Positions 5,899-50,203 of a DNA stretch of 64,000 bases are shown one piece after another. Both the position numbers and the translations under genes were made by a program. Source of the DNA: Colwellia demingiae (GTDB lineage Bacteria > Pseudomonadota > Gammaproteobacteria > Enterobacterales > Alteromonadaceae). Positions within the stretch are counted from its first letter, which is position 1; the number at the start of each line of letters is the position of its first letter. Under the pieces are notes generated by a model. The model was not told the DNA's origin. It saw nothing but the letters and a program-made list of their open reading frames with translations, and did not search any database. The DNA is taken from contig NZ_VOLT01000009.1 in assembly GCF_007954275.1 (NCBI RefSeq), forward strand, positions 62,001 to 126,000, given 5' to 3'.

Positions 5899-6837
5899 TT
5901 ATTGAATGGCGGGTAGTGACTGCATGTTTTTACAAATATCAATAATGATAGTTCTTAGCCAACGGTGAGACTTTACGTGTTCCATGCTCCAGTGCCAATT
6001 CATGTAAGCTATCATTTGTTTAGTTTTAAAAGGCGGGTTAAACCAAATATAATCATCTACATTACGCATAGACTGTAAAACAGTGCCTGGCATGATACAA
6101 ATTAAGTCAGTAGCACTCACAATTTCTAAAATATTTTCAATACTTGTACTGGTGTATTTTATCTCTCGGTTGTAGCTAAAATCTTGCATGGCTAAACTAA
6201 GTGGATAAACATTACCTTTTCTCGGGGCTAATACCGCATGTTTTTCTGCCAAATATTCAGAGAGCAATAAGTTAGTTTTATTGTTAAGGCTAGGGTGTTC
6301 CTTCCTTGCAATGACAAACAGTTTGTCGTCAAATAATTCTTGGTGGTGGCAGCCTATTTCATCAATAGTTAAATAATCAAGATGCAGGTCGTATTCTTTA
6401 TCCCTTAATGATTTTTCTGCATCAATTAGCATATCAGTACTGACGGTGAGTGAAATGTTCGGAGCTACATGCGCTAAATATTGGCTTAGTTTGGTTAAAT
6501 AATTACTGTTACCCACGCCTAAAATGTTGATATGAAAATTTAGATTGGCTGTTTCTGGTAAAAAATCACCGGTATCAGGTAAGGTTGATGACACATCCGC
6601 GAGTATTTTATTGATGATAGGGTAGATTTCATCCGCTTTGAGTGTCGGCATCATTTTACCTGCTTTACGCTCAAATAAGGGGTCATTGTAGAGCGACCTT
6701 AATCTTTTGAGTGCCTGTGAAACAGCAGGCTGTGTCATGCCCAAATTTTCAGCTGCATGGCTAATGTTTTTTTCATGCATTAATGCCGTAAATATTGACA
6801 GTAGATTTAAATCTACGTTCCTTAAATACCTAGCCAT
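5899..6837 (-). CDS. LysR-family transcriptional regulator
   Basis: 312 aa, a normal LysR length. The N-terminal winged helix-turn-helix (about residues 8-67) contains the typical AAENLGMTQPAVSQALKRLR, followed by a linker helix and a periplasmic-binding-protein-like effector domain (about 95-305). It is transcribed divergently from the sulfatase at 7007, with 169 bp between the starts. That space holds a perfect 21-bp palindrome, the expected kind of LysR target. It is therefore the probable regulator of this sulfatase and perhaps of the YiaW/YiaV-like genes, where a similar site occurs. The inducer is unknown, perhaps a sulfate ester or its desulfated product. Confidence 0.93.
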   Translation of the reverse strand: MARYLRNVDLNLLSIFTALMHEKNISHAAENLGMTQPAVSQALKRLRSLYNDPLFERKAGKMMPTLKADEIYPIINKILADVSSTLPDTGDFLPETANLNFHINILGVGNSNYLTKLSQYLAHVAPNISLTVSTDMLIDAEKSLRDKEYDLHLDYLTIDEIGCHHQELFDDKLFVIARKEHPSLNNKTNLLLSEYLAEKHAVLAPRKGNVYPLSLAMQDFSYNREIKYTSTSIENILEIVSATDLICIMPGTVLQSMRNVDDYIWFNPPFKTKQMIAYMNWHWSMEHVKSHRWLRTIIIDICKNMQSLPAIQ

Positions 6838-7006: not shown

Positions 7007-8515
7007 ATGACAATTAATACTAAATTTACACAGTTTGCCATTGCATTAGGAATGTTGACTGTATCTGCAACATCACTAGCAACTACGGATACAAGTAAAC
7101 CCAATATTTTAGCTATCTGGGGTGATGATATTGGACCCTATAATATTAGTGCTTATAACCGGGGAGTAATGGGATATAACACACCTAATATTGACAGAAT
7201 TGCTAATGAGGGGGTTTTATTTACCGACTCTTATGGCGATCAAAGTTGTACTGCTGGTCGCGCTGGTTTTATAACGGGTCAACATCCTATCCGCACAGGT
7301 TTAACCAAAGTTGGCCTACCCGGTGCAAAAGAAGGCATTAACAAAAAGGACCCAACCATTGCTGAGTTACTTAAACCCCATGGTTACATGACCGGCCAAT
7401 TTGGTAAAAACCATTTAGGCGATCAAGACGAACATTTACCGACTAACCATGGTTTTGATGAGTTTTTTGGCAATCTGTATCACTTAAATGCCGAAGATGA
7501 GCCAGAGCATCCTGATTACCCGCAAGACCCCGCGTTTAAAAAACGTTTTGGTCCTCGTGGCGCTATACACTCATTTGCTGATGGTAAAATTACCGATACG
7601 GGGCCCGTGACTAAAAAACGTATGGAAACTATTGATGAAGAGTTTTTAGGCGCAACGCTAAAGTTTATCGATAAAGCTCATGCGGCAAAAAAACCATTTT
7701 TCGTCTGGTTTAACTCTACTCGTATGCATATTTGGACTCGTCTAAAACCTGCATCTCAAGGTGTTACTGGCCAAGGTTTATACGCCGATGGCATGACAGA
7801 ACATGATGGCCATGTTGGACAGTTACTCGATAAATTAGATGACTTAGGAATAGCAGACAATACCATTGTTTTGTACACCACAGATAATGGTGCTGAATTA
7901 ATGCTTTGGCCTGACGGTGGTTATACGCCATTTAGAGGTGAAAAAAATTCAAACTGGGAAGGTGGTTACCGTGTGCCAATGTTAGTGAAATGGCCAAATA
8001 AAATTAAGCCAAACCAAGTTTCAAATGAAATCATTTCATTGCAAGATTGGATGCCTACCTTTTTAGCTGCGACGGGAGATAATAATGTTAAAGCAGACCT
8101 TAAAAAAGGTAAAAATGTTGGTGGCACTAAATTTAAAGTACACCTTGATGGTTATAACTTTTTACCACATTTGTTAGATACGTCGAAAAAAGGCCCACGT
8201 AAAGAGTTTATTTATAGTTCAGATACCGGTGAGGTTGTTGCCATTCGTGATGGTGACTACAAAATGATCTTCAGAGCACAGAAAGCCCATGGATTAGAAA
8301 CGTGGATGAATCCTTGGAGTGTATTAAGAGCACCTAAAATGTTTAACCTAAGAATGGACCCATTTGAACGTATGGATATTGAAGGACACGGTTATGCAGC
8401 ATGGTACGCGGAACATATGTTCTTAATTGCACCGTCAATGTTTAAGGTAGGCGCTTTTAAACAAACCTTTATTGAGTTCCCTCAACGTATGAAACCAGGC
8501 AGCTTTGTTCCTTAG
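7007..8515 (+). CDS. Periplasmic sulfatase (S1 family), locus A
   Basis: 502 aa with a Sec signal peptide (cleavage near SLA-TT, residue 26). It should hydrolyse sulfate esters in the periplasm; the substrate cannot be read from sequence. The alkaline-phosphatase-superfamily core is intact. WGDDIGP (39-45) supplies metal-binding aspartates, and Cys81 in SCTAGR is the residue expected to become formylglycine. KNHLGDQDEH and TTDNGAE provide further active-site residues. The formylglycine motif is C-x-A-x-R rather than C-x-P-x-R. AAAGGAATACTT precedes the ATG. It is very similar to the sulfatase at 48695-50203. It is followed by a terminator and then a SUMF1-like gene, the same pairing as in locus B. 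Confidence 0.93.
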   Translation: MTINTKFTQFAIALGMLTVSATSLATTDTSKPNILAIWGDDIGPYNISAYNRGVMGYNTPNIDRIANEGVLFTDSYGDQSCTAGRAGFITGQHPIRTGLTKVGLPGAKEGINKKDPTIAELLKPHGYMTGQFGKNHLGDQDEHLPTNHGFDEFFGNLYHLNAEDEPEHPDYPQDPAFKKRFGPRGAIHSFADGKITDTGPVTKKRMETIDEEFLGATLKFIDKAHAAKKPFFVWFNSTRMHIWTRLKPASQGVTGQGLYADGMTEHDGHVGQLLDKLDDLGIADNTIVLYTTDNGAELMLWPDGGYTPFRGEKNSNWEGGYRVPMLVKWPNKIKPNQVSNEIISLQDWMPTFLAATGDNNVKADLKKGKNVGGTKFKVHLDGYNFLPHLLDTSKKGPRKEFIYSSDTGEVVAIRDGDYKMIFRAQKAHGLETWMNPWSVLRAPKMFNLRMDPFERMDIEGHGYAAWYAEHMFLIAPSMFKVGAFKQTFIEFPQRMKPGSFVP

Positions 8516-8581: not shown

Positions 8582-8731
8582 CCTAATGAAGTTGCTGTGT
8601 AAACGAACATAAATTTATTGCAGGGCACGATAGTGAAGTCACACAGCTATTTATCTTTCAAGGGTATCGCAATAAAAAAAACCAGCCTAAATCTTTATTC
8701 AAGCAATTATAGTTTTAAGAGCATTCATAAT

Positions 8732-9571
8732 ATGAATATATTCTGTAAAAGTTATCAAATAACCCGTCCAATTTTCTTAACCACTCTATTGATTTTATTG
8801 TCTATTGGTGGAGCATTGAGCCAAGAAATCCCTACGTCCGAAGTTAAAAATAAGCGCACTTTATCATTAACAAGCCAAAAGGAATTATTAGCTAATATGG
8901 CTTGGGTAGAGGGCGGCGACTTTGTCATGGGCAATGATTCAGAAAACGCAAGAAACCGAGAAAAGCCAGCGCACAAAGTAACCCTTAATGGTTTTTATAT
9001 GGGGAAAACTGAAGTGACTTCAAAATTATGGGAAGAAGTGATGGGCTGGAACTATAGCTACTTTACCTGTGATGAATGCGCTGTTAATAATATCAGCTGG
9101 AAAAATGTACAAGAATTTATCAAACGTTTAAATGCAGCAACGGGAAAAGTATTTCGCTTGCCTTCAGAAGCTGAATGGGAATATGCAGCAAAAGGCGGTA
9201 ATGAATCACGAGGTTATACCTATAGTGGCTCGAATAATATTGATGACGTCGCATGGTATGCGGGTAATTCAGTCCATAAAAATCACCCTGTTGCGATGAA
9301 AAAGCCGAACGAACTCGGCTTATACGATATGACCGGAAACCTATGGGAGTTTTGCATGGACGATATGAGTCGTACCATCTATAGCAAAGCCCCAAGATAT
9401 AACCCACTTCATGCACCCAATAAAGACTTTAACACGACTTCAATGAAAGCTATTCGTGGCAGTGGATATGATTTTCCTGCTAATGAATCAGAAGTCTATA
9501 AACGTGATGGGGCAACGAGTAATGTTCGTATGCCAGATATTGGTTTTAGGTTAGCTTTAGACAAGCTGTAG
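8732..9571 (+). CDS. SUMF1-like protein lacking FGE active-site cysteines, locus A
   Basis: 279 aa from the ATG at 8732; the frame extends upstream to a TTG at 8618, but the 8732 start leaves a clean signal peptide (PIFLTTLLILLSIGGALSQ). The FGE-sulfatase fold is clear: MAWVEGGDFVMGND, PAHKVTLNGFYMGKTEVT, FRLPSEAEWEYAAKGG, NELGLYDMTGNLWEFCMDD, and a final IGFRLAL. In true formylglycine-generating enzymes the segment after RGGS carries two catalytic copper-binding cysteines. Here it reads RGSGYDFPANESEVYKRDGA, with none. A CDEC pair near residue 115 is in the region that often reads CPV-x-x-VSW in relatives. It is thus exported but probably not an FGE oxidase. A role as sulfatase partner is inference from the repeated gene pairing. 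Confidence 0.85.
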   Translation: MNIFCKSYQITRPIFLTTLLILLSIGGALSQEIPTSEVKNKRTLSLTSQKELLANMAWVEGGDFVMGNDSENARNREKPAHKVTLNGFYMGKTEVTSKLWEEVMGWNYSYFTCDECAVNNISWKNVQEFIKRLNAATGKVFRLPSEAEWEYAAKGGNESRGYTYSGSNNIDDVAWYAGNSVHKNHPVAMKKPNELGLYDMTGNLWEFCMDDMSRTIYSKAPRYNPLHAPNKDFNTTSMKAIRGSGYDFPANESEVYKRDGATSNVRMPDIGFRLALDKL

Positions 9572-38241: not shown

Positions 38242-39639
38242 TTAATCACTGTTAAGATTAATACGCTCTTTAGGAGTAAAATTAGCTGTATCCTCTTTTT
38301 TAGATGTACTAGCATCAATTTTACTAATTAATACCTTAGCATCGCTTACAGAAAAGCTTAACGGTATGTTTTCTGTGTTACTTTCATTGAAAGCCAATTG
38401 ATTTAATGTAGCAGATTGCGAGCAGCCTGCTGTGTAAGCTTGCTTATTTTTTAATAAGGCATATTGATAGAGGTATTGCGTTGCAATTAAGTAATTCTTA
38501 CTGGTTACTGCATTTATAAATTCACTACGCAGTAACCTTTGTTCTCGCTTAGTGAGTTTGTTATATAAAGCGGATAAATAATGACGGTTTATGAAGCCTA
38601 GCGAGATAAGTATTAGTAACACTATGACGATGATTGAGTTTATTACTGATTTAATAGTGAAGTTAAACGACTTTAAAGAACTAGCTGTACTAATTTTGCT
38701 TAAGCCCCCGTCAGAAACTGTCCATGTGGATGACGGAATCAACAAACGCTCAAGTGTGTTGGTTTGACTATTCCACCAGTAGATAACTTGCTCATCGATT
38801 ACATAACGTCCAGATTTTTCAAAAATATAAGTAAAAGACTCTACGCGAGTACCTAATAACGTACCACGATTAGACTTATCAAAGACTTGTGCGGGTTTGT
38901 GATAAATACTGACTCCATCTAACGTTACCTTCTCATTATCCACCTTATTATCCGCTGGTTTATCATTAGCTGTTAGGCTCGCCGTCACTAAATTATTCGC
39001 TACGAAGTTAATTGGCTTTATCATCATTGCCGGTGTGTCATCGGCGGTAATTGTTATAGTCTGCGTGATGGCTTCGCCTATCGCATAGTTTTTATCTTCA
39101 TCGAACTGCCCGTCAACGGTTAGTGTTACCTGTGGCGACACGATGAAATTTTCAATACCTTCAAGCGCTTTAGGTAATTCAATAGTAAAATTACTTTCTT
39201 GGGTACTAAGTTCGCCGCTGACTATGCCATGGTGTTCTGTATTAACGGAGATATCGACATTAATTGGATCAATTTGATAAGCGCCGGATACGGTAGGATA
39301 TAGTGTAATTTCATGGGTTTGTGTTGCCCACGTTTGACCATTGATGCGTTTGCTACCATTTATTGTTGTAATATTGTTTGCCTGCATTACGACATTTTTT
39401 AAGGTGAAATGCTGAATTTGACTACCTGTAGCAAACCATCGGTCTGTTGATACTTCGATAGCCAGTATTAGAGCTTGTCCGACTATTTGTTGCTCTTTTT
39501 GATTGACCTGCAAGTTAATCGTTAACTTACCTTGAGTAACTAAATCCTCTATATTTTGTGCCGCTGTCGCGGTTGGTATTACCGTTAGCTGACAAATTAG
39601 AACAATAAATGTGAGTAGGGAAATAAACTTTTTATTCAT
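38242..39639 (-). CDS. BatD-like exported protein
   Basis: 465 aa from ATG 39639, which has AGGAG six bases upstream; the adjacent ATG at 39642 and an ORF start at 39660 are less well spaced. A signal peptide (FISLLTFIVLICQLTVIPTATA) precedes several Ig-like beta-rich repeats (about residues 30-310). A membrane helix (SIIVIVLLILISLGFI, about 335-350) and a cytoplasmic tail follow. This is the layout of BatD proteins. It is the last gene of the MoxR/VWA operon; such operons are implicated in envelope stress tolerance and in MoxR-assisted protein maturation, but the molecular role of BatD is unknown. Confidence 0.83.
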   Translation of the reverse strand: MNKKFISLLTFIVLICQLTVIPTATAAQNIEDLVTQGKLTINLQVNQKEQQIVGQALILAIEVSTDRWFATGSQIQHFTLKNVVMQANNITTINGSKRINGQTWATQTHEITLYPTVSGAYQIDPINVDISVNTEHHGIVSGELSTQESNFTIELPKALEGIENFIVSPQVTLTVDGQFDEDKNYAIGEAITQTITITADDTPAMMIKPINFVANNLVTASLTANDKPADNKVDNEKVTLDGVSIYHKPAQVFDKSNRGTLLGTRVESFTYIFEKSGRYVIDEQVIYWWNSQTNTLERLLIPSSTWTVSDGGLSKISTASSLKSFNFTIKSVINSIIVIVLLILISLGFINRHYLSALYNKLTKREQRLLRSEFINAVTSKNYLIATQYLYQYALLKNKQAYTAGCSQSATLNQLAFNESNTENIPLSFSVSDAKVLISKIDASTSKKEDTANFTPKERINLNSD

Positions 39640-40420
39640 CATTAACTCCTTTGTTCCCATCTTTACTATTATCTTTATCAGTTGTTATTTTTTTATTCTT
39701 TTCTTGATTAACAATCTCTTGTTGCATATAAAATTTTTGAGATAAAAAATACGCTGGATTTTTTTGTACCTGTCTCAACCACATATCATTTAGACTAGGG
39801 TCGAGAAGAAGTTGTTCTGCGCTGAGCTGTTCTATTTCTTGCTCTTTGGGAGCTACTTCACGTTCAGCGCCATCCCCTGTTTGAGGTTCGTCACCTAACT
39901 CTTTTATTGACTCTCCGTCTTCTTGTGCTTGACTAGCAGATAAACGGTTTACCTCATCAATGATGGCCTGAACGATTTTTATGTTAGTGCTAGCGGCTAG
40001 GTTTTGTGGCTCAATTGTTAATATCTGTTGATATAAGTTGCGTGCACTTATGTATTCACGGCCATGGGCTAGGGCATTAGCTTTGGCTATTTGACTTTCG
40101 ACATCAGTAAATTGACCATAAAGGTTAACTGAATTTTTATATTGCTCTGCGCCATAACTGCTATAGGCTTGCCATTGAGTGTTTTTAAATGTGTTACTAG
40201 CCTGCTGATAATGTCCCAAGTTAAACAGCACTTGTCCACGTTGATCACGGGTAAGCCAAAAGTCAGCAAATTGCTGTGGTTTCACGTAGGCGAAAAGGCA
40301 ACTTCCGATGACAACTATGCTAATTAACATACTTTTATTAACGTAGCGTTTATTAAGATAACTTCGTTGATTGGTTTGTGCGGAAAAGTTAAACCACCGT
40401 GTTGTTATTAATTTTACCAT
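39632..40420 (-). CDS. TPR protein of the Bat operon (BatB/C-like C-terminal part)
   Basis: 262 aa from ATG 40420, whose ATGG overlaps the VWA stop (ATGGTAA); an ATG at 40432 is the alternative. A hydrophobic helix (SMLISIVVIGSCLFAYV) is followed by WLTRDQRGQVLFNLGHYQQAS, which starts a TPR run, then an acidic low-complexity linker and a conserved end (DMWLRQVQKNPAYFLSQKFYMQ). In many relatives this segment is fused to the VWA protein encoded just upstream. Here it is separate, and linked by translational coupling. It probably forms a membrane complex with the two VWA proteins. Confidence 0.82.
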   Translation of the reverse strand: MVKLITTRWFNFSAQTNQRSYLNKRYVNKSMLISIVVIGSCLFAYVKPQQFADFWLTRDQRGQVLFNLGHYQQASNTFKNTQWQAYSSYGAEQYKNSVNLYGQFTDVESQIAKANALAHGREYISARNLYQQILTIEPQNLAASTNIKIVQAIIDEVNRLSASQAQEDGESIKELGDEPQTGDGAEREVAPKEQEIEQLSAEQLLLDPSLNDMWLRQVQKNPAYFLSQKFYMQQEIVNQEKNKKITTDKDNSKDGNKGVNDE

Positions 40421-41403
40421 TGCAGAGTCCATCCTTTTCTAAACCAGAACAAGAAAATACCCGCCACAACAAATACCATAGGGTAACCCGAGTCATGCCA
40501 TGGTCTACTATTGTCATCAACAATGACAAGATTGTGCTTAATGTAGTTATTAACCCTGTTAACATCACTGTTGTCATTACTCATTAATATCAGACGACCA
40601 TTACTCTCATTCGTTAATGCCTTTAACTGCTCAAGTTGCAAAGGAATGATATCAGTAGTTAATGCGGCTGACCCTTCCTCTGATTGTGCTGATTTACCTA
40701 TGCCCCAAACAAGCAACTGCGCCCCTTGTTTGTCAAAAAACTTTTTAAAGCTATTTACTGTATTACTGGTTGCGCCATCACCTATTAATAAAACCGTGCC
40801 GGGCACGCTAGAAGTAGCTAATAAATTATCGGCTAAAGGGATAATAGTTTCAGGTAACTTGCCGGAAACAGGCATAACCTTTTCATCTAATGCATCAAGA
40901 AAGTGGCGGATCATTTCTCTGTCATTGGTTATTGGCATTACTACATGCGCACTGCCAGCAAAGGCAATGAGAGCCGTTTTACTATCGCCCCTGAGTTCGA
41001 GTAACTCGATGATTTTTTGTTTTGCGCGTAATAACCTTGATGGTTGTACGTCACCTTGTTCCATGGTTTTAGATACATCAAGCGCAATGATAAGTGGTGC
41101 ATTATTCTCACTAAAAGGTGAGGATTGTTGTTGCCAAGTCGGTCCCATTAGCACAATACAAAGCGGGATCGCTAGGATTAAGGACATTTTTTGTGGAGAC
41201 AACCAGTTGTTATTATTACCGCTCACCGTTAAGTGCGACAATACTTGAGCAGACATTAAAGACCGCCATTGCGCTAAACTATCATCGCGTAATGAAAAGG
41301 CACGAATAATGTAAACAATTATGATGAATGCTAGTAACCAATAAGGGCGCAGAAAGTGAAAGTGCTGCATGTTATCAAAAAATAGTGAGATATCGTCAAT
41401 CAT
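40414..41403 (-). CDS. VWA-domain membrane protein (BatB-like)
   Basis: 329 aa. Two N-terminal membrane segments flank a short loop, a von Willebrand A domain follows (about residues 95-290), and a C-terminal helix ends in RKGW. The metal site reads ALDVSKTM, i.e. D-x-S-x-T rather than the usual D-x-S-x-S; the second loop LIGDGATS keeps the Asp. The gene overlaps BatA-like by 4 bp (ATGA) and the TPR gene downstream. VWA proteins in MoxR operons are thought to act as partners of the AAA ATPase. Confidence 0.9.
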   Translation of the reverse strand: MIDDISLFFDNMQHFHFLRPYWLLAFIIIVYIIRAFSLRDDSLAQWRSLMSAQVLSHLTVSGNNNNWLSPQKMSLILAIPLCIVLMGPTWQQQSSPFSENNAPLIIALDVSKTMEQGDVQPSRLLRAKQKIIELLELRGDSKTALIAFAGSAHVVMPITNDREMIRHFLDALDEKVMPVSGKLPETIIPLADNLLATSSVPGTVLLIGDGATSNTVNSFKKFFDKQGAQLLVWGIGKSAQSEEGSAALTTDIIPLQLEQLKALTNESNGRLILMSNDNSDVNRVNNYIKHNLVIVDDNSRPWHDSGYPMVFVVAGIFLFWFRKGWTLQW

Positions 41404-42482
41404 AATTTAGCTCTTTGTTGTTTGGCTAACTGTAGGCGGATTCGAATATTGACAATAAATAAAGCCAGCAGATAAATACTGACAAATAATACGATAGGGT
41501 AATGATGTATACTGACTCTTGGCCTAAATGATAGTGAGTCAAACTGCTGTGGTTCAAGTCTATCAATCTCAGCATAAACCTCTAATAATTCATCACTATT
41601 TAATGCTTGAAAACTTTTACCTTTGGTAATATCTGCCATAGCTTCTAAAACCTCTAAATCTACCTTTTCTTCACCAACAGCACTTGGATCGCCAATGGCG
41701 ATGGTATATATCTTAATATCTTGTGCTGCAGCAACTTTGGCGGCTTCTACTGGCGGAACTTTTGAAGCAGTATCATTGCCATCAGTTAATACAATTAACA
41801 CACGATTTTGGGTGTCAGATTGTTGGAAAACACTGATGGCTAGACCAATGGCATCACCAAAAGCGGTACTTTGACCAGCCATGCCGATATCGCTTTCGTT
41901 AAGCAAAGCTTGCCAAGTAGCTATGTCATCAGTAAAAGGGGCTTGCAGATATGGGGCATCACCAAAAAGGATAAGTCCTAATCTGTCATGTTCGCGACTT
42001 TTAACAAAGGCATTGAGTACATGTTTAACCGCCACTAATCGATTAACTTGCTCACCTTTGGCTATGGCGTTTGTATTGCTTTTTGTTGCACTAGTATCAG
42101 TGTCATTTGTTGTGTTATTCGTTAACACATTGGCAGTGTTAGGTAAGGTAAAATCTTCGACTGACATAGAGCCGGATAAATCGACTGCTATCATTAAGTC
42201 ACGCGCGGACTTTTCTTGATTAATCGGTGCACCAATCATTTCGGGTTTAGCGATAGCAGTGATAATACACAGCCATGAGAAAGCAACAATGAATCGTTGT
42301 AGGTTATTGCGATTAAGTAATACCGCACCACTTTGTGGTTTTTCACCGGTTACATCAACCAGACGAGCAAAGTAGGGCACCTTAATTGATGATTTTCGTT
42401 CTTTATAAGCAGGTGCAAACAGGGTTACAACAAAAGGGACTATGAGTAATACAAACGCCCAGGGATAAACGAACTCGATCAT
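41400..42482 (-). CDS. VWA-domain membrane protein (BatA-like)
   Basis: 360 aa. N-terminal helices (about 1-25 and 63-82), a VWA domain with the canonical metal-ion site DLSGSMS (about residue 95) and LTDGNDTAS, and a C-terminal membrane helix (YPIVLFVSIYLLALFIV). The complete D-x-S-x-S motif contrasts with the variant in its neighbour. It overlaps the DUF4381 gene by 4 bp. It lies in the order MoxR-DUF58-DUF4381-BatA-BatB-TPR-BatD. Confidence 0.92.
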   Translation of the reverse strand: MIEFVYPWAFVLLIVPFVVTLFAPAYKERKSSIKVPYFARLVDVTGEKPQSGAVLLNRNNLQRFIVAFSWLCIITAIAKPEMIGAPINQEKSARDLMIAVDLSGSMSVEDFTLPNTANVLTNNTTNDTDTSATKSNTNAIAKGEQVNRLVAVKHVLNAFVKSREHDRLGLILFGDAPYLQAPFTDDIATWQALLNESDIGMAGQSTAFGDAIGLAISVFQQSDTQNRVLIVLTDGNDTASKVPPVEAAKVAAAQDIKIYTIAIGDPSAVGEEKVDLEVLEAMADITKGKSFQALNSDELLEVYAEIDRLEPQQFDSLSFRPRVSIHHYPIVLFVSIYLLALFIVNIRIRLQLAKQQRAKL

Positions 42483-43165
42483 GTTGCAACTCCATCTGTA
42501 CCATTACTACCTGCTGCTAACTTAGTCTCAACGGGCAATTCATGATGCTTTATCCATAACTCGATTTGTTGGCGCAGTTGTATTAGCCCTTTATTAAACG
42601 GAGCATTGTTAAGGTCTATTTTGGCCATATAGGGAAGTTGAGCCAATAACCTTTCACAAGAGTAATAGTCTGAGGAATACGGTGCATCTTGTTCATGAAA
42701 ATGACATTTATTACAATGTTGGTCGAGCCATTTCACCCAAGCTATTCCCCTTAACTCGGTAATTTCTTGTCTGCATTTTATCGCAAAAAATTCATTACTA
42801 TTCTCGCCAATATTATCACTACTTTTATTTACGCCATTATTCTTGTTATTAGAAGAATAGTTACTCTCTTTCAATTGGCGATTATTGGCGAGGATAGCCG
42901 TTTTTCTAACTAATGCAGGTAATTGCCTAATATCTTCTTCATTAGAAAGAGAGCATTGAGCAAGCCAAACAAGGGCTTCGCGGCGATAGGCATTAGCTTG
43001 ATAATTTTTCCATGATTGATAAATTTTTTTGAGAATAAGCATTATCATAAATATAAAAAGTAGTTGCCAAGCAATTGTTTGAGGCCAAAAGCTAATCATG
43101 TCAGGTGCTTTTGTTTCGACAATGGCCTCGAGTAAATAATTACCCCAAGGTTTTTCAAAACTCAT
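42479..43165 (-). CDS. DUF4381 membrane protein of the MoxR operon
   Basis: 228 aa. One membrane helix (WQLLFIFMIMLILKKIY, about residues 30-48) is followed by a basic segment with YRREALVWLAQC and a helical cytoplasmic domain. The Asn/Ser-rich stretch about residues 105-125 looks like a flexible insertion. DUF4381 proteins occur almost only in these operons, between DUF58 and BatA; the function is unknown. It overlaps both neighbours by 4 bp. Confidence 0.85.
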   Translation of the reverse strand: MSFEKPWGNYLLEAIVETKAPDMISFWPQTIAWQLLFIFMIMLILKKIYQSWKNYQANAYRREALVWLAQCSLSNEEDIRQLPALVRKTAILANNRQLKESNYSSNNKNNGVNKSSDNIGENSNEFFAIKCRQEITELRGIAWVKWLDQHCNKCHFHEQDAPYSSDYYSCERLLAQLPYMAKIDLNNAPFNKGLIQLRQQIELWIKHHELPVETKLAAGSNGTDGVAT

Positions 43166-44187
43166 GACTTAATTCCTGTGCTATGTCCTGCTTTAGCACC
43201 AGTTTTACTTCCTGCTTTGTGACCAAGGGCTTTGCGCAATTGCTGCTCGACAGGGGAAATAGTGTCTATTTCAATTAACGGAATACGATACTTTTTAGCC
43301 GCTTTGACATAACTCTCTAACTGACGAGCTATTTCAGCTTCATAATTTTTTTGAACGTGCTTTTTCTCTGAAGAAAACTGGATCTGTTGCACACCATCAC
43401 TGACAATCATTTGTGACATTTTGGGTAAGGTCTGCTCTAAGGGATCAAAAATGTGGCAGGCAATAACTTCATTATGTTGCCTTAATTGCTTAACAAAATC
43501 GGTGCTTTTATCGTTAAAGCCATGACCATCACCAATTAAAATAATTAAACCATTATGGCTTGAGACTTTATTTAAGGTAGCCAACATTTTGTTATAGGAC
43601 TCACTATCATCAGTGTGTAGATGATCGTTATTGTCGATGGATAGCTCGTGGTTTTTCTTCAATACTTCCGCGAGTAAATTGACAACATGTTGTCTGCCAC
43701 GTTTAGCGGGTATTACTTTAGTTTGTTGATCATTATAAATAACTGCGCCAATGCGATCACCACTATCACTTATTTGCCAAGCAATTAACGCGGAAAGTTC
43801 AGCGGCAATCACTGATTTCATTTTATTTGAGCTACCAAAGAACATCGTCATACGTTGATCTATGGCTAAAAACACATTGCGCTCTCGCTCTTCGGTGAAC
43901 ACCTTGATATGGGGTTTTCCGGTTCTTTGCGTGACTTTCCAATCCATAGAGCGAATATCGTCGCCTGGGCGATAATGGCGCAGCTCTTCAAAATTGAGCC
44001 CTCGACCACGAAGTTTAGAGACATTTTTACCACTTAAGGCACTGTTTGCTGGCTGATTGGGTGTAAACGAAAAACCTTTATCTAAATACTTTAGCCGACG
44101 TAATTCATTGAGGTCAACGTAAATCGCTGACTTATCTTTAGAGCCATCTTCAGACTTATTTTTATTAGCAGGTGTGTTGGTGCTCAT
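43162..44187 (-). CDS. DUF58 domain protein of the MoxR operon
   Basis: 341 aa. The conserved segment GLNFEELRHYRPGDDIRSMDWKVT-type (about residues 63-88) defines DUF58, and the following part has a VWA-like fold with AIDQRMTMFFGS and IILIGDGHGFND. No membrane helix is seen. It lies between the MoxR ATPase (9 bp upstream) and DUF4381, and probably links ATPase and VWA components. It ends in a basic KAGSKTGAKAGHSTG tail. Confidence 0.92.
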   Translation of the reverse strand: MSTNTPANKNKSEDGSKDKSAIYVDLNELRRLKYLDKGFSFTPNQPANSALSGKNVSKLRGRGLNFEELRHYRPGDDIRSMDWKVTQRTGKPHIKVFTEERERNVFLAIDQRMTMFFGSSNKMKSVIAAELSALIAWQISDSGDRIGAVIYNDQQTKVIPAKRGRQHVVNLLAEVLKKNHELSIDNNDHLHTDDSESYNKMLATLNKVSSHNGLIILIGDGHGFNDKSTDFVKQLRQHNEVIACHIFDPLEQTLPKMSQMIVSDGVQQIQFSSEKKHVQKNYEAEIARQLESYVKAAKKYRIPLIEIDTISPVEQQLRKALGHKAGSKTGAKAGHSTGIKS

Positions 44188-44196
44188 ATGAACCCC

Positions 44197-45195
44197 TTAG
44201 GCTACAGCCACCTGTTTAAGTATTTCATCTATTACCGCATCAGCAGTAATACCGTCAGCTAAAGCGTCGTAACTGAGTACTAGACGATGGCGTAGAACGG
44301 AATGTGCCACAGAGCGAACATCGTCAGGGTCAACGAAGTCTTTTCCGTTTAGCCAGGCTTGCGCACGGGCACATTTATCAATGGCGATACTCGCTCTTGG
44401 ACTTGAGCCAACTGTTAACCATTGTTGCAATGGTGAATCAGGATATCGTTCAGGCTTTCTCGTTGCCATAACGATGGCAACAATGTAATCGATGATGGCT
44501 TGGCTAGCATGAATTGTATGAATTTCATCTCGGGCAGTGAAAATATGATCAGGACTAATATTCTCAACAGCTTGTACGCTCTTTTCTTCGCTGCGTACTA
44601 ATTTGATGATTTCACCCTCAGCAGCATCATCAGGGTAATCAAGATTGATTTTCATGATGAATCGATCCATTTGTGCTTCAGGTAACGGGTAAGTGCCTTC
44701 TTGTTCAATGGGGTTCTGGGTTGCTAATACCATAAATAATTCAGGTAATTTGTAGGTTTTACCAGCAACGGTGATTTGTCTTTCTTCCATCGCCTCTAAG
44801 AGCGCAGCTTGTACCTTTGCAGGCGATCTATTGATTTCATCAGCAAGTAACAGGTTATTAAAAATAGGACCTTGTTGAAAAGTAAGCACGGGTTTGCCGT
44901 TAACCTCTTGGTAAACCTCTGTACCCGTGACATCAGAGGGTAATAAATCGGGCGTGAATTGTACCCGACCAAGATCTACGGCAAGAGAGCGAGCTAAGGT
45001 TTTAATTGAGCGGGTTTTTGCCGTGCCGGGTAAGCCTTCTAATAAAATATTACCATTAGTTAAAAGGGCAATGAGCAGCGAGTCTACAACATGTGACTGA
45101 CCAATAACCGATTGCTCAATTTGTGCTTTTAATAATTTTAACTGCGCTAGCGCATTAGACTTATCACTCACTTGGTCATTCATTTTGTTACTCAT
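44197..45195 (-). CDS. MoxR-family AAA+ ATPase
   Basis: 332 aa. Walker A LEGLPGTAKT, Walker B LLADEINRSP, sensor 1 LATQNPIEQEGTYPLPEAQMDRF and the C-terminal AAA lid with SPRASIAIDKCARA are all present. MoxR ATPases act as chaperones for VWA-associated complexes. It is the first gene of a seven-gene unit ending with BatD. A hairpin in the 87-bp gap upstream separates it from the cytochrome gene. Confidence 0.96.
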   Translation of the reverse strand: MSNKMNDQVSDKSNALAQLKLLKAQIEQSVIGQSHVVDSLLIALLTNGNILLEGLPGTAKTRSIKTLARSLAVDLGRVQFTPDLLPSDVTGTEVYQEVNGKPVLTFQQGPIFNNLLLADEINRSPAKVQAALLEAMEERQITVAGKTYKLPELFMVLATQNPIEQEGTYPLPEAQMDRFIMKINLDYPDDAAEGEIIKLVRSEEKSVQAVENISPDHIFTARDEIHTIHASQAIIDYIVAIVMATRKPERYPDSPLQQWLTVGSSPRASIAIDKCARAQAWLNGKDFVDPDDVRSVAHSVLRHRLVLSYDALADGITADAVIDEILKQVAVA

Positions 45196-45282: not shown

Positions 45283-47586
45283 TTATTGATTTAGCTGTTG
45301 CCTAAGCGTTTGAATCACATTACTGGGCACTAACGGGGCAAGTTGTGCGAAACATTGTTTTGCTAAGCCACTTTTATGGCGGACTTGCATGTCACATAGC
45401 GCGTATAAATGTTGCGGGTTATTACTCAGTTGAAATGCTTGATACAAAGCTCCATAAGCTGCACTTGGTTTATGCTGCTCTAAACTTAAACCATAAACAT
45501 AAAAATAATGGCTGTTTTGTGGTGCAAGTTGTGTGGCAATAGCTAATGCTTGTGCTGCTTTTACTTTGTCTTTCACTCTAATATAGGCGAGTCCTAAATT
45601 ATAGGGCAGGCTAGCATCATCAGGATTTGCTGATTTTCCTTGCTGCAATATTTCAATACTTTTTTGGTTTTCGCCTCGTTGATAATAAACTTGACTCAAA
45701 TTGAGGTAAGTTCGTGCAAAATGTTTTTCTATTGCTATGCCTTGTTTGAAGGCTTTAATGGCTTGATCGTATTGTCCCTGATAGGCGGCAATAATTCCTC
45801 GATTAGAATGAGAAAAACTACGGTCATTATTAAATTGCTGACTCGCGATATATTCATTAAGGGCGGGCGTTAATTGTTCTTTTTGTGGTGCTGATAAGTT
45901 TTGCCACAAACTGGTTAAGGCAAAAGCAGCATTGACCCTTACTGCTAAGACTTTATCTTTTAATAAAGGTGATAAAATACGCCACTTTTCAGCGCCTGCC
46001 ATATTTTGAGCACCTTCAATTGCACCTAATCGAATGTTCTCATCTGGATTTTTAACGGCTCTGGCAATAGCGATAATAGTATTGGTGTTAGATATGCTAG
46101 CCATCTTAGTTAATGCAGAGGCGCGGATAATGCCAGCATAACTGGTAGTTTGTGCAATGCGAGATAACTCAGAAGAAACACCTTGTAGTTGTTGTTCATT
46201 TAATGCCAAGTTAATAGCTGAAAAAACTGCGACAAAATCCTTTTCCGCTTCAACTGATGAATTTGGATACCAAGCATTAACCTTGCTCGAACTCCATTGG
46301 CTATCTTTATCATCATGACAACTTAAACAGGTATCAGGTGTTCCTAATTTTTGCGTTAAGTTAGGCGTTGGTATATGAAAGCCATGATCACGCCTCGCAT
46401 CAATTTTCATATAAGTAGTCTCTGGCATATGGCAATTAACACATTGTGCGCCCGTAGAGTTTTCAGGATGTTTATGATGTTGTGTTGATGCGTAGTTATC
46501 ACTTTGATGACACTGCAAACAAAGTGTTTCTATTGGCAGTTTTAATTCAGCAGTGTGCGGATTATGACAATCAGTACATACCACGCCATTTTTATACATT
46601 TTAGATTGCAAAAATGAGCCATAAACAAAATCTTCGTTGTAAACTTGTCCGTCAGGGTGATAATTCGTGCTTGAAATTAAATCAAGTAAATAACGCTCAC
46701 CAAAGGCATTACCTTTAACATGATCGTTATTACTTACCTGAGTTCGTCTGCTATGACATTGCGCGCACACTAATACTTGTTGGCTATGCTCAATACTTTT
46801 TGGTGTTAAGGTTTTGTTGTTGTCTTTTACTTGCCAGTTTTGTACCGATTTTGATAAATCTCGGGTAAAACCTTTGTCATTCAATGGCATGCTTTTATTA
46901 GTTTTTTCAGATTTGTTTTTAGATTCTTTAGCCCAAATTAAATGTTCACTGGCGGCCCCATGGCAACTCTCACAAGCGACATTGATTTCACTAAAAGTAG
47001 TGTTGTAGGTGTCTGTTTTAATATCAAAGTTTTTATCTACATTGGTTGAATGACAGTCAGCACACATGTAGTTCCAGTTTTGACCGGTATTGGTCCAGAA
47101 GAATTCTTGATGCTTTTCAGTCATATCAGGGTAGAGGTTAAACCATCGTTGTCCTCCTTCTTCTTTGGCACGAGAGTCCCAAGCGAAAGGTATCAGCTGA
47201 ACTCGACCATCATCAAACTCAACCATATATTGCTGCAGTGGCTCATAACCAAAGGTATATTTAATCTGATAGTCGTGAAACTTACCATCATCACCTTTGA
47301 TATTGGCCCAGAACTGAGTACCTTTTTTAAAAAAGGTACTCAGTTTTTCAGAGGTTTTATCTTGATAAGCTAATGTGGCGTTATTAAAGTCACCTAAAAC
47401 ACTTTTGCTATCAGCATGTTTCATTGACATATCATGATGAGAGCCTTGCCAGTCTTGGTAGGCTTTTTCATGACAGCTGATACAGGCTTTTGAACCGACA
47501 AAACTTTGAGCAAAACTTTGACCTATAAAAGTATTAAGTACTAAAAAAAGTAGTCCTAAATAGATGTTTTTTGGTGATTTTGTCAT
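45283..47586 (-). CDS. Octaheme c-type cytochrome with HEAT/TPR C-terminus
   Basis: 767 aa from ATG 47586, giving a clean signal peptide (NIYLGLLFLVLNTFIGQSFA); an ATG 11 codons earlier (47619) is possible. Eight CxxCH heme-binding motifs are visible: CISCH, CADCH, CESCH, CAQCH, CTDCH, CLQCH, CVNCH and CLSCH. The last 300 residues lack Cys motifs and consist of HEAT-like (about 480-580) and TPR repeats (about 600-740), a protein-interaction platform. It should be a periplasmic electron-transfer protein of the cytochrome c554-like type. It lies just downstream of the SUMF1-like gene (33 bp gap), so the two may be cotranscribed. The electron donor and acceptor are unknown. Confidence 0.88.
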   Translation of the reverse strand: MTKSPKNIYLGLLFLVLNTFIGQSFAQSFVGSKACISCHEKAYQDWQGSHHDMSMKHADSKSVLGDFNNATLAYQDKTSEKLSTFFKKGTQFWANIKGDDGKFHDYQIKYTFGYEPLQQYMVEFDDGRVQLIPFAWDSRAKEEGGQRWFNLYPDMTEKHQEFFWTNTGQNWNYMCADCHSTNVDKNFDIKTDTYNTTFSEINVACESCHGAASEHLIWAKESKNKSEKTNKSMPLNDKGFTRDLSKSVQNWQVKDNNKTLTPKSIEHSQQVLVCAQCHSRRTQVSNNDHVKGNAFGERYLLDLISSTNYHPDGQVYNEDFVYGSFLQSKMYKNGVVCTDCHNPHTAELKLPIETLCLQCHQSDNYASTQHHKHPENSTGAQCVNCHMPETTYMKIDARRDHGFHIPTPNLTQKLGTPDTCLSCHDDKDSQWSSSKVNAWYPNSSVEAEKDFVAVFSAINLALNEQQLQGVSSELSRIAQTTSYAGIIRASALTKMASISNTNTIIAIARAVKNPDENIRLGAIEGAQNMAGAEKWRILSPLLKDKVLAVRVNAAFALTSLWQNLSAPQKEQLTPALNEYIASQQFNNDRSFSHSNRGIIAAYQGQYDQAIKAFKQGIAIEKHFARTYLNLSQVYYQRGENQKSIEILQQGKSANPDDASLPYNLGLAYIRVKDKVKAAQALAIATQLAPQNSHYFYVYGLSLEQHKPSAAYGALYQAFQLSNNPQHLYALCDMQVRHKSGLAKQCFAQLAPLVPSNVIQTLRQQLNQ

Positions 47587-47619
47587 GTGGTAATATTGCT
47601 CCAGGAAAATATTTAACAT

Positions 47620-48504
47620 TTATTTTTTACTCATGACTAATCTAAACCCGATGTCTGCCATACGTACATTGTTGGTCGCACCATCACGCATAAAAACTAA
47701 GTTTTCAGTCGCGGAAAACTCATAACCGCCACCGCGAATAACTTTCATCGCTTTACGTTTAAGGTTTTCTTTATCACCCATAAAAGGGTTATGGCTCTCT
47801 GTGAAGGTATAAGCTTGTCGGCTCATGTCATCAAGACAAAATTCCCATAAGTTCCCCGTCATATCGTATAAACCCAGCTCGTTAGGCTTTTTGAGCCCAA
47901 CAGGGTGGCTTTTATTTTTTGCGTTGTCAGCAAACCAAGCAACGTCATTAATATCATTAGAACCACTGTATTTATAGTCTTGAGACTTATTGCCACCTTT
48001 TGCAGCATATGCCCATTGAGCTTCTGTAGGCAAACTAAACTCTTTACCGGTAGCACTATTTAATCGTTCAATAAATAAAACCATATTAAACCAACTCACG
48101 TTATTTACCGGACACTTATCACAGGCGAAGAAGCTATTGTTCCACCCCATAATTTGCACGAAAACATCTTGAGTTAATTCATATTTACCAATGTAAAAAG
48201 CATCAAGACTGACTTGCCTGACAGGTTTTTCACGGTTTCTCGCTAAAGGTGAGTTAGAGCCCATCGCAAACGTGCCTGCTTCAACCAGTACCATGTTATT
48301 CATCAACTCATCAATCATTGGCTTAGATAAAGAAAATACTCGTTGTTTTTTATCTACATTTTCCACTTTAGCCACAGGTGATTTTATTAACGCTTCTATG
48401 GTTTTTGAATGACCGAGTAAGCTTACAGAGAACAAGCTAGTAATGATGGATAACTGTAACAAAGCGCGCAGTGAAGGCTGTGAAAATTTATAAGGTTTAT
48501 TCAT
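47620..48504 (-). CDS. SUMF1-like protein lacking FGE active-site cysteines, locus B
   Basis: 294 aa with a signal peptide (LLQLSIITSLFSVSLLGHS). FGE-sulfatase-fold motifs are MVLVEAGTFAMGSN, PVRQVSLDAFYIGKYELTQ, FSLPTEAQWAYAAKGG, LGLYDMTGNLWEFCLDD and IGFRLVM. In the place of the two catalytic cysteines of FGE it reads RGGGYEFSATENLVFMRDGA. It resembles the protein at 8732-9571 over the whole mature length and shares the CDKC pair ahead of PVNNVSW. It is thus a paralogue of uncertain function, associated with sulfatases in both loci. Conversion of Cys to formylglycine by this protein is not supported. Confidence 0.87.
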   Translation of the reverse strand: MNKPYKFSQPSLRALLQLSIITSLFSVSLLGHSKTIEALIKSPVAKVENVDKKQRVFSLSKPMIDELMNNMVLVEAGTFAMGSNSPLARNREKPVRQVSLDAFYIGKYELTQDVFVQIMGWNNSFFACDKCPVNNVSWFNMVLFIERLNSATGKEFSLPTEAQWAYAAKGGNKSQDYKYSGSNDINDVAWFADNAKNKSHPVGLKKPNELGLYDMTGNLWEFCLDDMSRQAYTFTESHNPFMGDKENLKRKAMKVIRGGGYEFSATENLVFMRDGATNNVRMADIGFRLVMSKK

Positions 48505-48694: not shown

Positions 48695-50203
48695 TTATGG
48701 CACGAAGCTTCCTGGTTTTTGACGCTGAGGAAACTCTTTAAAAGTTGCTTTAAATTGAGCAACTTTCATCATAGCAGGGGCCATTAAAAACATGTGCTCA
48801 GCCCACCATTGACCATACCCTTCAGACTCATGATCCATACGTTCATAAGGGTCCATTCTTAAATTGAATATCTTAGGTGCACGTAAGGTAGTCCATGGGT
48901 TTTGCCACACTTCTAAACCATGTGCTCGTTGTTCTTTAAAAACGAATTTATAATCTTCATATCGTAATCCAACAATGTCACCAGTATCTGAAGAATAGAT
49001 AAACTCTTTACGAGGACCTTCTTTGCTTGTATCTAAGAAGTGCGGTAAAAAGTTATAGCCATCAAGATGGACTTTGAATTTAGTGCCACCAACGTTCGTG
49101 CCTTTCTTAAGTTTACTTTTGATGTTTGTATCACCAGCAACAGCTAATATAGTCGGCATCCAATCGATTAATGAAATCATTTCATTAGATACTTGGTTAG
49201 GCTTAATTTTACCCGCCCATTTAACCATCATAGGAACACGGTAACCGCCTTCCCAATTGGTGTTTTTTTCACCTCTAAAGGGGGTGTAACCACCGTCAGG
49301 CCATAAGGCTAATTCAGCGCCATTATCTGTGGTGTACATAATAATAGTGTTTTCTGCGATACCTAGTTTATCAATTTTATCCAGTAATTGACCTACATGA
49401 CCGTCATGTTCAACCATGCCGTCAGCATATAAACCTTGGCCAGTAACACCATCAGAGGCAGGCTTTAAGCGTGTCCAAACATGCATACGGGTAGAGTTGA
49501 ACCAGACAAAGAATGGTTTTTTAGTGGCGTGAGCTTTATCGATAAACTTAAGTGCGGCGCCTAAAAACTCTTCATCGATAGTTTCCATACGTTTTTTAGT
49601 CACAGGGCCGGTATCGGTAATTTTACCATCGGCAAAGGAATGGATAGCACCACGAGGACCGAAACTCTTTTTAAAGGCTGGGTCTTTAGGGTAATCTGGA
49701 TGCTCTGGTTCATCTTCTGCATTTAAGTGATAAAGGTTACCGAAAAACTCATCAAAACCATGGTTAGTCGGTAAATGCTCATCTTGGTCACCTAAATGGT
49801 TCTTACCAAATTGGCCGGTCATGTAACCATGAGGTTTAAGTAATTCGGCAATGGTAGGATCTTTTTTATTAAGCCCTTCTTTTGCACCAGGTAAACCTAC
49901 TTTAGTTAAACCTGTACGCATAGGATGTTGTCCGGTAATAAAACCAGCGCGACCTGCGGTACAACTTTGGTCTCCGTACGAATCAGTGAAAATAATCCCT
50001 TCATTAGCAATACGGTCAATATTAGGTGTTTTATAACCCATAATGCCGCGGTTATAAGCGCTGATGTTAAATGGGCCGATATCATCGCCCCAGATTGCGA
50101 GAATATTAGGTTTAGCGGTATCAGTCGTTGCCATTACAGCGCTTGATGCAGCTATTAATCCTAAACCTAAAACCAGTTTCTTTAACTTATTTTGAGTTAC
50201 CAT
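48695..50203 (-). CDS. Periplasmic sulfatase (S1 family), locus B copy 1
   Basis: 502 aa with signal peptide (KLVLGLGLIAASSAVMA). The catalytic set is intact: WGDDIGP (39-45), Cys81 in SCTAGR, KNHLGDQDEH, YTTDNGAE and FRGEKNTNWEGGYRVP. It is the closest relative in this window of the locus A sulfatase, with identical length and near-identical blocks. It is a C-x-A-x-R type. Its own terminator suggests a separate transcript from the SUMF1-like gene that follows. The substrate is unknown; a sulfated polysaccharide, steroid or small-molecule ester are all possible. Confidence 0.94.
   Translation of the reverse strand: MVTQNKLKKLVLGLGLIAASSAVMATTDTAKPNILAIWGDDIGPFNISAYNRGIMGYKTPNIDRIANEGIIFTDSYGDQSCTAGRAGFITGQHPMRTGLTKVGLPGAKEGLNKKDPTIAELLKPHGYMTGQFGKNHLGDQDEHLPTNHGFDEFFGNLYHLNAEDEPEHPDYPKDPAFKKSFGPRGAIHSFADGKITDTGPVTKKRMETIDEEFLGAALKFIDKAHATKKPFFVWFNSTRMHVWTRLKPASDGVTGQGLYADGMVEHDGHVGQLLDKIDKLGIAENTIIMYTTDNGAELALWPDGGYTPFRGEKNTNWEGGYRVPMMVKWAGKIKPNQVSNEMISLIDWMPTILAVAGDTNIKSKLKKGTNVGGTKFKVHLDGYNFLPHFLDTSKEGPRKEFIYSSDTGDIVGLRYEDYKFVFKEQRAHGLEVWQNPWTTLRAPKIFNLRMDPYERMDHESEGYGQWWAEHMFLMAPAMMKVAQFKATFKEFPQRQKPGSFVP

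Follow-up and report, generated by a model that had tools for sequence, protein, structure and literature searches.

This analysis concerns a 64,000-nucleotide stretch of the Colwellia demingiae genome (the window, to which all positions refer) and two proteins encoded in it, A (8732-9571) and B (47620-48504), that resemble the formylglycine-generating enzyme (FGE) and stand beside sulfatases. Judged by their sequences, they are not FGEs; the two cysteines with which FGE binds copper are absent from both. The steadier partner of the sulfatases is an octaheme c-type cytochrome with tetratricopeptide repeats (TPR), encoded next to B, which tracks cysteine-type sulfatases across Gamma- and Alphaproteobacteria. 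We give a probability of roughly 0.4 to a joint explanation in which A and B would be noncatalytic helpers that bind the sulfatases, formylglycine would be made or fed by the octaheme-TPR cytochrome, and MoxR and VWA proteins would provide remodelling or metal loading. The link between cytochrome and sulfatase is supported by genomics, and the formylglycine chemistry is a proposal drawn from sequence data.

FGE-like proteins A and B

Type I sulfatases depend on formylglycine, and to our knowledge only two sulfatase maturases are established. FGE carries its two copper-binding cysteines in a GGS-x-L-C-x3-Y-C segment. Its metal site is described as a bis-thiolate Cu(I) site (PMC12123546). Do A and B have such a segment? 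Both clearly belong to PF03781 (A scores 133.4 bits and B 133.8, against a curated cut-off of 23.3), which bears out the original prediction that A keeps the FGE-sulfatase fold. Protein A, read from an ATG at 8732, has 279 amino acids (a longer open reading frame begins with a TTG at 8618), and the open reading frame of B was confirmed, with 294; putative signal peptides on both look plausible by eye. Each gene has a sulfatase upstream on its own strand, with a gap of 216 bp between A and sulfatase A and of 190 bp between B and sulfatase B. Their C-terminal segments, RGSGYDFPANESEVYKRDGATSNVRMPDIGFR and RGGGYEFSATENLVFMRDGATNNVRMADIGFR, contain no cysteine. Beyond the first residues, A has only C113 and C116 (in a CDEC motif) and C208, and B has the same three. 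When 30 members of their clade are aligned with 13 two-cysteine FGEs, the column of the first catalytic cysteine holds F in 28 of the 30 and that of the second holds S or N in 29, and the three residues that follow are a gap in all 30; a separate alignment places the second FGE cysteine inside this gap, and its exact counterpart is uncertain. A shifted catalytic cysteine is ruled out, there being none in either sequence or in the alignment. The absence of the cysteines from the segment, predicted for both paralogues, is thus real.

Has the segment simply decayed? Twelve residues (R242, G243, Y246, E252, R258, D259, N264, V265, R266, D269, G271, and R273) are invariant over 117 rows comprising A, B, and 115 homologues of 200 to 360 amino acids, so the segment is under strong constraint and has not decayed. 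A structure predicted from a 99-sequence alignment reached a pLDDT of 96 (an earlier prediction on 27 sequences, with 65 overall and below 50 in the key segment, was set aside), and Foldseek retrieved SUMF2/pFGE (1y4j), whose FGE fold lacking the active-site cysteines A and B share. Other identities within the superfamily were considered and rejected, A and B scoring, respectively, 62.6 and 55.1 bits for PvdO (NF051459; equivalog cut-off 500), 88.5 and 99.2 for GldK/PorK (TIGR03525; 350), 50.3 and 33.9 for EgtB (TIGR03440; 360), and 27.3 and 25.4 for OvoA (TIGR04344; 400).

The original prediction also spoke of a shared loss of the cysteines, and here the tree disagrees. In a maximum-likelihood tree of 83 PF03781 rows (13 two-cysteine FGEs, 30 clade members, and 40 others), the cysteine-less clade is set off by a branch of length 1.14 with 100/100 support, and the 13 FGEs form their own clade (100/99). 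Separate, well-supported clades argue for a branch that never had the pair, and the pair was probably absent from the lineage of A and B from the outset; the tree is midpoint rooted with weak deep branches, so the clade's neighbor and the strict direction of change are not fixed. The clade consists of short-loop PF03781 proteins and is placed among bacterial short-loop proteins, the three-residue gap being found in 37 of the 40 other rows as well. Because the pair occurs in just 13 of the 83 rows, its absence is the commoner state among the proteins compared, although rows were sorted by this very motif, so that the others lack the pair by construction; four of them retain one of the two cysteines, and one labeled as other (OTH_L036) belongs to the cysteine-less clade. 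The original observation is true, yet on its own it is ordinary for PF03781. The name formylglycine-generating enzyme is wrong for A and B whether or not the cytochrome is the maturase, and, as had been warned, automatic annotation misleads, with relatives carrying such names. The worth of the observation lies in its context, namely, that no known maturase was found for the cysteine-type sulfatases and that a cytochrome accompanies such sulfatases in two classes.

Sulfatases, maturases, and the octaheme cytochrome across genomes

What, then, matures the sulfatases? The C. demingiae genome (G000; 5.23 Mb, 37 contigs, 99.98% complete) has 13 PF00884 matches, including at least seven cysteine-type sulfatases, six with CTAGR (the four in the window, L009, and L011) and one with CAPSR (L015). 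A PF03781 search of this genome returned three proteins, A, B, and an OvoA, and no two-cysteine FGE. Nor was an anSME found there, the best TIGR03942 score being 66 bits against a curated cut-off of 349; two weak matches were judged by eye to be a NirJ-like protein and a short radical-SAM protein.

The same pattern extends to a family sample of 147 genomes. The sulfatase subfamily of the window (alignment A2, at least 780 bits; the next-best genome reaches 257) occurs in 14 of them, spanning six genera, and the cysteine-less clade (alignment A1, above 300 bits) occurs in 10, all among those 14. Two-cysteine FGEs, with the pair read in the sequence, are found in 8 of the 147 genomes and anSME-like proteins above 140 bits in 3, and all 11 carriers lie outside the 14; the other FGE-query matches within the 14 show no cysteine pair (L287 to L289 and L291 were read, and L290 is short). 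The cytochrome scores 690 bits or more in exactly the 14 sulfatase genomes, a line chosen after the scores were known and with a profile (alignment A4) built from nine proteins beside a sulfatase, eight of them from genomes among the 14. Eleven of these genomes score 1178 to 1459 bits, and G027, G097, and G068, in which the sulfatase is the gene next to the cytochrome, score 699 to 725; next come a second copy in G127 (673) and another genome (642), and a further 30 genomes have matches at E <= 1e-30. G029, G082, and G130, which are not in the profile, score 1178 to 1234, with no other genome near. A MoxR-DUF58-VWA operon is present in the cytochrome locus in 14/14 genomes, and the sulfatase shares that locus in 11. 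In G012, G036, G073, and G146, the sulfatase, cytochrome, and MoxR operon occur with no FGE-like gene and no A1-clade match elsewhere, so the cysteine-less protein looks dispensable. In a separate set of 12 loci, a sulfatase is adjacent in 10, all from Colwellia. As a side observation limited to the locus itself, 3 of these 10 Colwellia loci (L023, L027, and L028) have no cytochrome gene in the interval from the FGE-like gene to moxR.

A class sample of 370 genomes, with thresholds of E <= 1e-140 for the sulfatase subfamily and E <= 1e-120 for the cytochrome (at most two cytochrome candidates scored per genome), added 13 genomes with the sulfatase. A two-cysteine FGE was found in four (G292, G322, G335, and G493), on a reading of 50 loci but not every short fragment, with the motif only in L112 to L115 and L125; in G292 and G322, it is next to the sulfatase or one gene away. 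The cytochrome was found in six (G186, G320, G335, G379, G464, and G479) and is the next gene to the sulfatase in G186 and G464. No anSME reached the cut-off in any of the 13 (best, 43 bits). In the 27 sulfatase genomes of the two samples, FGE and cytochrome occur together less often than expected (one of four; P = 0.042, ignoring kinship). The cytochrome is also present in 15 class-sample genomes with no sulfatase match at the threshold used.

Does the association hold for more distant relatives of the cytochrome? We read 51 wider loci from Gammaproteobacteria, counting as cysteine-type any sulfatase with a C-x-[PA]-x-R signature in the stretch read. They were drawn in part from 38 of the 42 wider family-sample genes (G044:C7, G075:C6, G095:C64, and G113:C8 were left out), while L204 and L240, at about 150 bits and outside the cytochrome family, were dropped before counting. 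A cysteine-type sulfatase lies near the cytochrome in 17 of the 51 stretches (within 3 kb in 12 and within 400 bp in 7), with signatures including CTPSR, CSPTR, CSPSR, CTPTR, CGPSR, and CSAMR. None was found in 20 control stretches placed at hand-chosen round coordinates in 11 cytochrome-carrying genomes (Fisher P = 0.0014, ignoring kinship). By comparison, 3 of 8 two-cysteine FGE genes have one in the surrounding 8 kb. Five class-sample cytochrome loci, taken because the genome has the sulfatase, were kept out of the 51 (G379:C184 is not among them); the sulfatase is adjacent in G186 and G464, and none was seen in G320, G379, and G479. MoxR as a general partner of the cytochrome was rejected, as it is found at 0/48 of the wider loci scanned. 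In some genera (L184, L186, L187, and L188), the MoxR operon is shorter, with a longer second VWA protein (about 540 amino acids) and no separate TPR gene seen.

Such pairs also occur on plasmids. A cysteine-type sulfatase lies within 2.4 kb of 14 of the 16 full-length cytochrome loci read, although these were picked for variety and not at random from 147 matching plasmid records (124 of them Rhizobium or Sinorhizobium), and the record of one chosen match (H20) already mentioned an arylsulfatase at selection; L284, a short Granulicella cytochrome of 126 bits, was left out of the count. The pairs come from Vibrio, Pseudoalteromonas, Methylosinus, Methylocystis, Rhizobium, Sinorhizobium, and Alisedimentitalea, and the two loci without such a neighbor are those of Alteromonas 76-1 and P. 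shioyasakiensis A316. Partner sulfatases are just 24 to 63% identical to sulfatase B, so several subfamilies are involved. On one Vibrio plasmid (L264), a stretch of about 21 kb holds sulfatases, the cytochrome, a gene for a cysteine-less FGE-like protein, and the MoxR operon. On Sinorhizobium and Rhizobium plasmids (L265, L280, and L285), the genes for an arylsulfatase (CTPGR), a HAD hydrolase, and the octaheme-TPR cytochrome stand in a fixed order.

Layout of the two loci

The genes of the window that belong to loci A and B are as follows.

5899-6837, minus strand: LysR-type regulator (by resemblance, without a family scan), divergent from sulfatase A
7007-8515, plus strand: sulfatase A, PF00884, CTAGR (Pfam, motif)
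8732-9571, plus strand: FGE-like protein A, PF03781, no catalytic cysteine (sequence, Pfam, alignment, tree)
9455-9568, plus strand: segment of A matching the FGE copper-cysteine segment, residues 242-279, no cysteine (sequence, alignment)
38242-39660, minus strand: BatD-like protein (match just under the Pfam cut-off)
39632-40432, minus strand: TPR protein in BatC-like position (weak TPR match, below the Pfam cut-off)
40414-41403, minus strand: VWA-domain protein in BatB-like position
41400-42482, minus strand: VWA-domain protein in BatA-like position
42479-43165, minus strand: DUF4381 protein
43162-44187, minus strand: DUF58 protein
44197-45195, minus strand: MoxR-type AAA+ ATPase
45283-47619, minus strand: octaheme (eight CxxCH) c-type cytochrome with C-terminal TPR repeats (sequence, Pfam)
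47620-48504, minus strand: FGE-like protein B, PF03781, no catalytic cysteine (sequence, Pfam)
48695-50203, minus strand: sulfatase B, CTAGR (Pfam, motif)
50446-51984, minus strand: sulfatase C, CTAGR (Pfam, motif)
52295-53863, minus strand: sulfatase D, CTAGR (Pfam, motif)

Between the stop codon of B and the first base of the cytochrome gene there is no gap (0 bp). Sulfatases A to D all combine a PF00884 score of 159 to 171 bits with CTAGR, as type I (S1) sulfatases do. In an alignment of 74 cytochromes, preselected for at least seven CxxCH motifs, the histidines of eight CxxCH are conserved in 100%, together with six conserved histidines outside CxxCH (H226 at 89%) and the invariant M66 and M341. 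Searched against Protein Data Bank (PDB) sequences, the cytochrome profile found, among the 60 of 139 matches listed, almost only TPR proteins, and 6i5b alone matches the heme part. Two neighbors may be mentioned in passing: relatives of the LysR-type regulator adjoin CTAGR sulfatases in L086, L087, L088, and L090, and relatives of a PF01663 phosphodiesterase-like protein (55245-56960) adjoin a CTAGR sulfatase in other genera (L075, L078, L162, L164, and L176).

A possible route to formylglycine, its rivals, and known systems

How might formylglycine arise here? In the periplasm, A and B, which have an FGE-type fold and no copper site, would bind sulfatases of the CTAGR type or the precursors of these before folding. 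Neither A and B nor an FGE nor an anSME would oxidize the CTAGR cysteine to formylglycine. The periplasmic octaheme-TPR cytochrome would withdraw two electrons from the cysteine side chain, converting the thiol to a thioaldehyde, and hydrolysis would then yield the aldehyde, formylglycine, with no need of copper-FGE chemistry or radical SAM. In this clade, the MoxR and VWA (Bat) proteins might remodel or metal-load one of the partners, as NorQ and NorD do. The most likely inference is that formylglycine is present in these sulfatases and is produced by the cytochrome, with A and B as helpers; the original prediction had offered binding, chaperoning, or presenting the sulfatase as another role, and such a role would fit best. 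A more tentative claim is that the octaheme-TPR cytochrome is a third, heme-based sulfatase maturase for CxPxR and CxAxR sulfatases, with the cysteine-less proteins as its presenting subunits in one clade.

A number of observations weigh against this explanation. Pairing of the cysteine-less form with this sulfatase subfamily, raised in the original prediction, holds in one direction in the family sample, where all 10 genomes with the gene have a CTAGR sulfatase, and fails in the other, 4 of the 14 sulfatase genomes having no such gene. Adjacency is likewise partial: 6 of 11 cysteine-less genes are beside a sulfatase (in G049 with one intervening gene), and 5 lie apart. The family-sample non-overlap of cytochrome and FGE is borderline (P = 0.053, ignoring kinship), G335 has both together, and G094 has a wider cytochrome relative along with an anSME. 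A putative FGE is attributed to S. meliloti (PMC6189696), whose plasmids carry the cytochrome-sulfatase pair. No cysteine-type sulfatase was seen in the stretch read at 34 of the 51 wider loci. In the class sample, 4 of 13 sulfatase genomes (G155, G222, G250, and G281) gave no match to a two-cysteine FGE, an anSME, or the cytochrome at these thresholds, and a further maturation route, or misses, must therefore exist. Finally, the conserved histidines and methionines of the cytochrome are compatible with either the presence or the absence of an open catalytic heme.

Could the sulfatases instead owe their maturation to some general system yet to be identified, of the kind proposed for E. coli, or be active with an unmodified cysteine, the cytochrome having some other job in sulfated-glycan use (for example, as an electron carrier) and A and B being clustered binding proteins? 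For E. coli, an as yet unidentified machinery is described as converting the cysteine of some sulfatases, and a choline sulfatase with unmodified cysteine as still turning over slowly (PMC6189696); the four class-sample genomes and 34 wider loci just mentioned point the same way. We consider this rather unlikely, as the cytochrome coincides with the CTAGR genomes in 14/14 cases and follows cysteine-type sulfatases from widely differing subfamilies in two classes, plasmids included, a spread that a role bound to one substrate would not predict. It is improbable that A and B themselves generate formylglycine in some unusual way, using other residues such as the CxxC pair or the invariant E252/R258/D259 segment. 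The high conservation of their C-terminal segment would suit such a role, as would the restriction of the gene in the family sample to CTAGR-sulfatase genomes (10/10) in which no FGE or anSME was found, but the gene is missing from 4/14 sulfatase genomes with no other known maturase found, the CxxC pair is absent from a Lentisphaera homologue (P0066), C208 is replaced by Val in 16% of the 117-row alignment, and there is no two-cysteine copper site.

Two further alternatives concern FGE itself. Human SUMF2 (pFGE), which has the fold but not the copper active site, is described as lowering FGE activity (PMC13199485), and with 1y4j among the Foldseek matches one may ask whether A and B serve as SUMF2-like regulators, damping the activation of sulfatases. 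We give this little credence: no FGE to be damped was found in the C. demingiae genome, Sumf2 is called restricted to eukaryotes (PMC13199485), and the clade of A and B sits among bacterial proteins. There is also a very slight chance that a two-cysteine FGE is hidden in an assembly gap, the genome being in 37 contigs; its completeness speaks against this, as does the finding of no such FGE in 14/14 subfamily genomes, of which G012, G029, G049, G082, and G097 are single-contig assemblies.

Why would a cytochrome maturase matter? As a defined gene pair on plasmids and assembled genomes, the octaheme-TPR cytochrome and its sulfatase make the question of a third maturase directly testable. If true, the proposal would explain how sulfated glycans are used by sulfatase-carrying bacteria in which neither FGE nor anSME is detected, and it would offer a new route to aldehyde-tagged proteins. 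In a literature search covering titles and abstract openings, with most subscription papers and all preprints outside it, none of the matches listed ties a multiheme or octaheme cytochrome to sulfatase maturation.

Among known FGE-fold proteins, A and B differ from FGE/SUMF1 (PF03781; human 1y1e, S. coelicolor 2q17, and T. curvata 5nyy) in having no copper cysteine pair, in a loop three residues shorter, and in their separate clade. They differ from SUMF2/pFGE in that the latter is eukaryotic and acts on FGE, of which none was found alongside A and B. Like A and B, Treponema denticola TvpA (2y3c) and PvdO (5hha) are FGE-fold proteins other than FGE, with different roles, variable ligand binding for TvpA and pyoverdine maturation for PvdO; neither is known to have a link to sulfatases. 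The proposed route resembles the third sulfatase maturation system of E. coli, reportedly postulated by Benjdia in 2007 (a reference cited in PMC6189696 and PMC6315715), in that formylglycine would form with no known FGE or anSME, and that system has no known link to octaheme-TPR cytochromes. A 2015 paper called the E. coli system unidentified (PMC6189696). The closest parallel for the operon is the MoxR/VWA maturation pair NorQ/NorD, as described in PMC9976466 and PMC13036017: in both cases an AAA+ MoxR protein and VWA partners stand beside the enzyme to be matured, but here the proposed target would be a sulfatase or its cytochrome partner.
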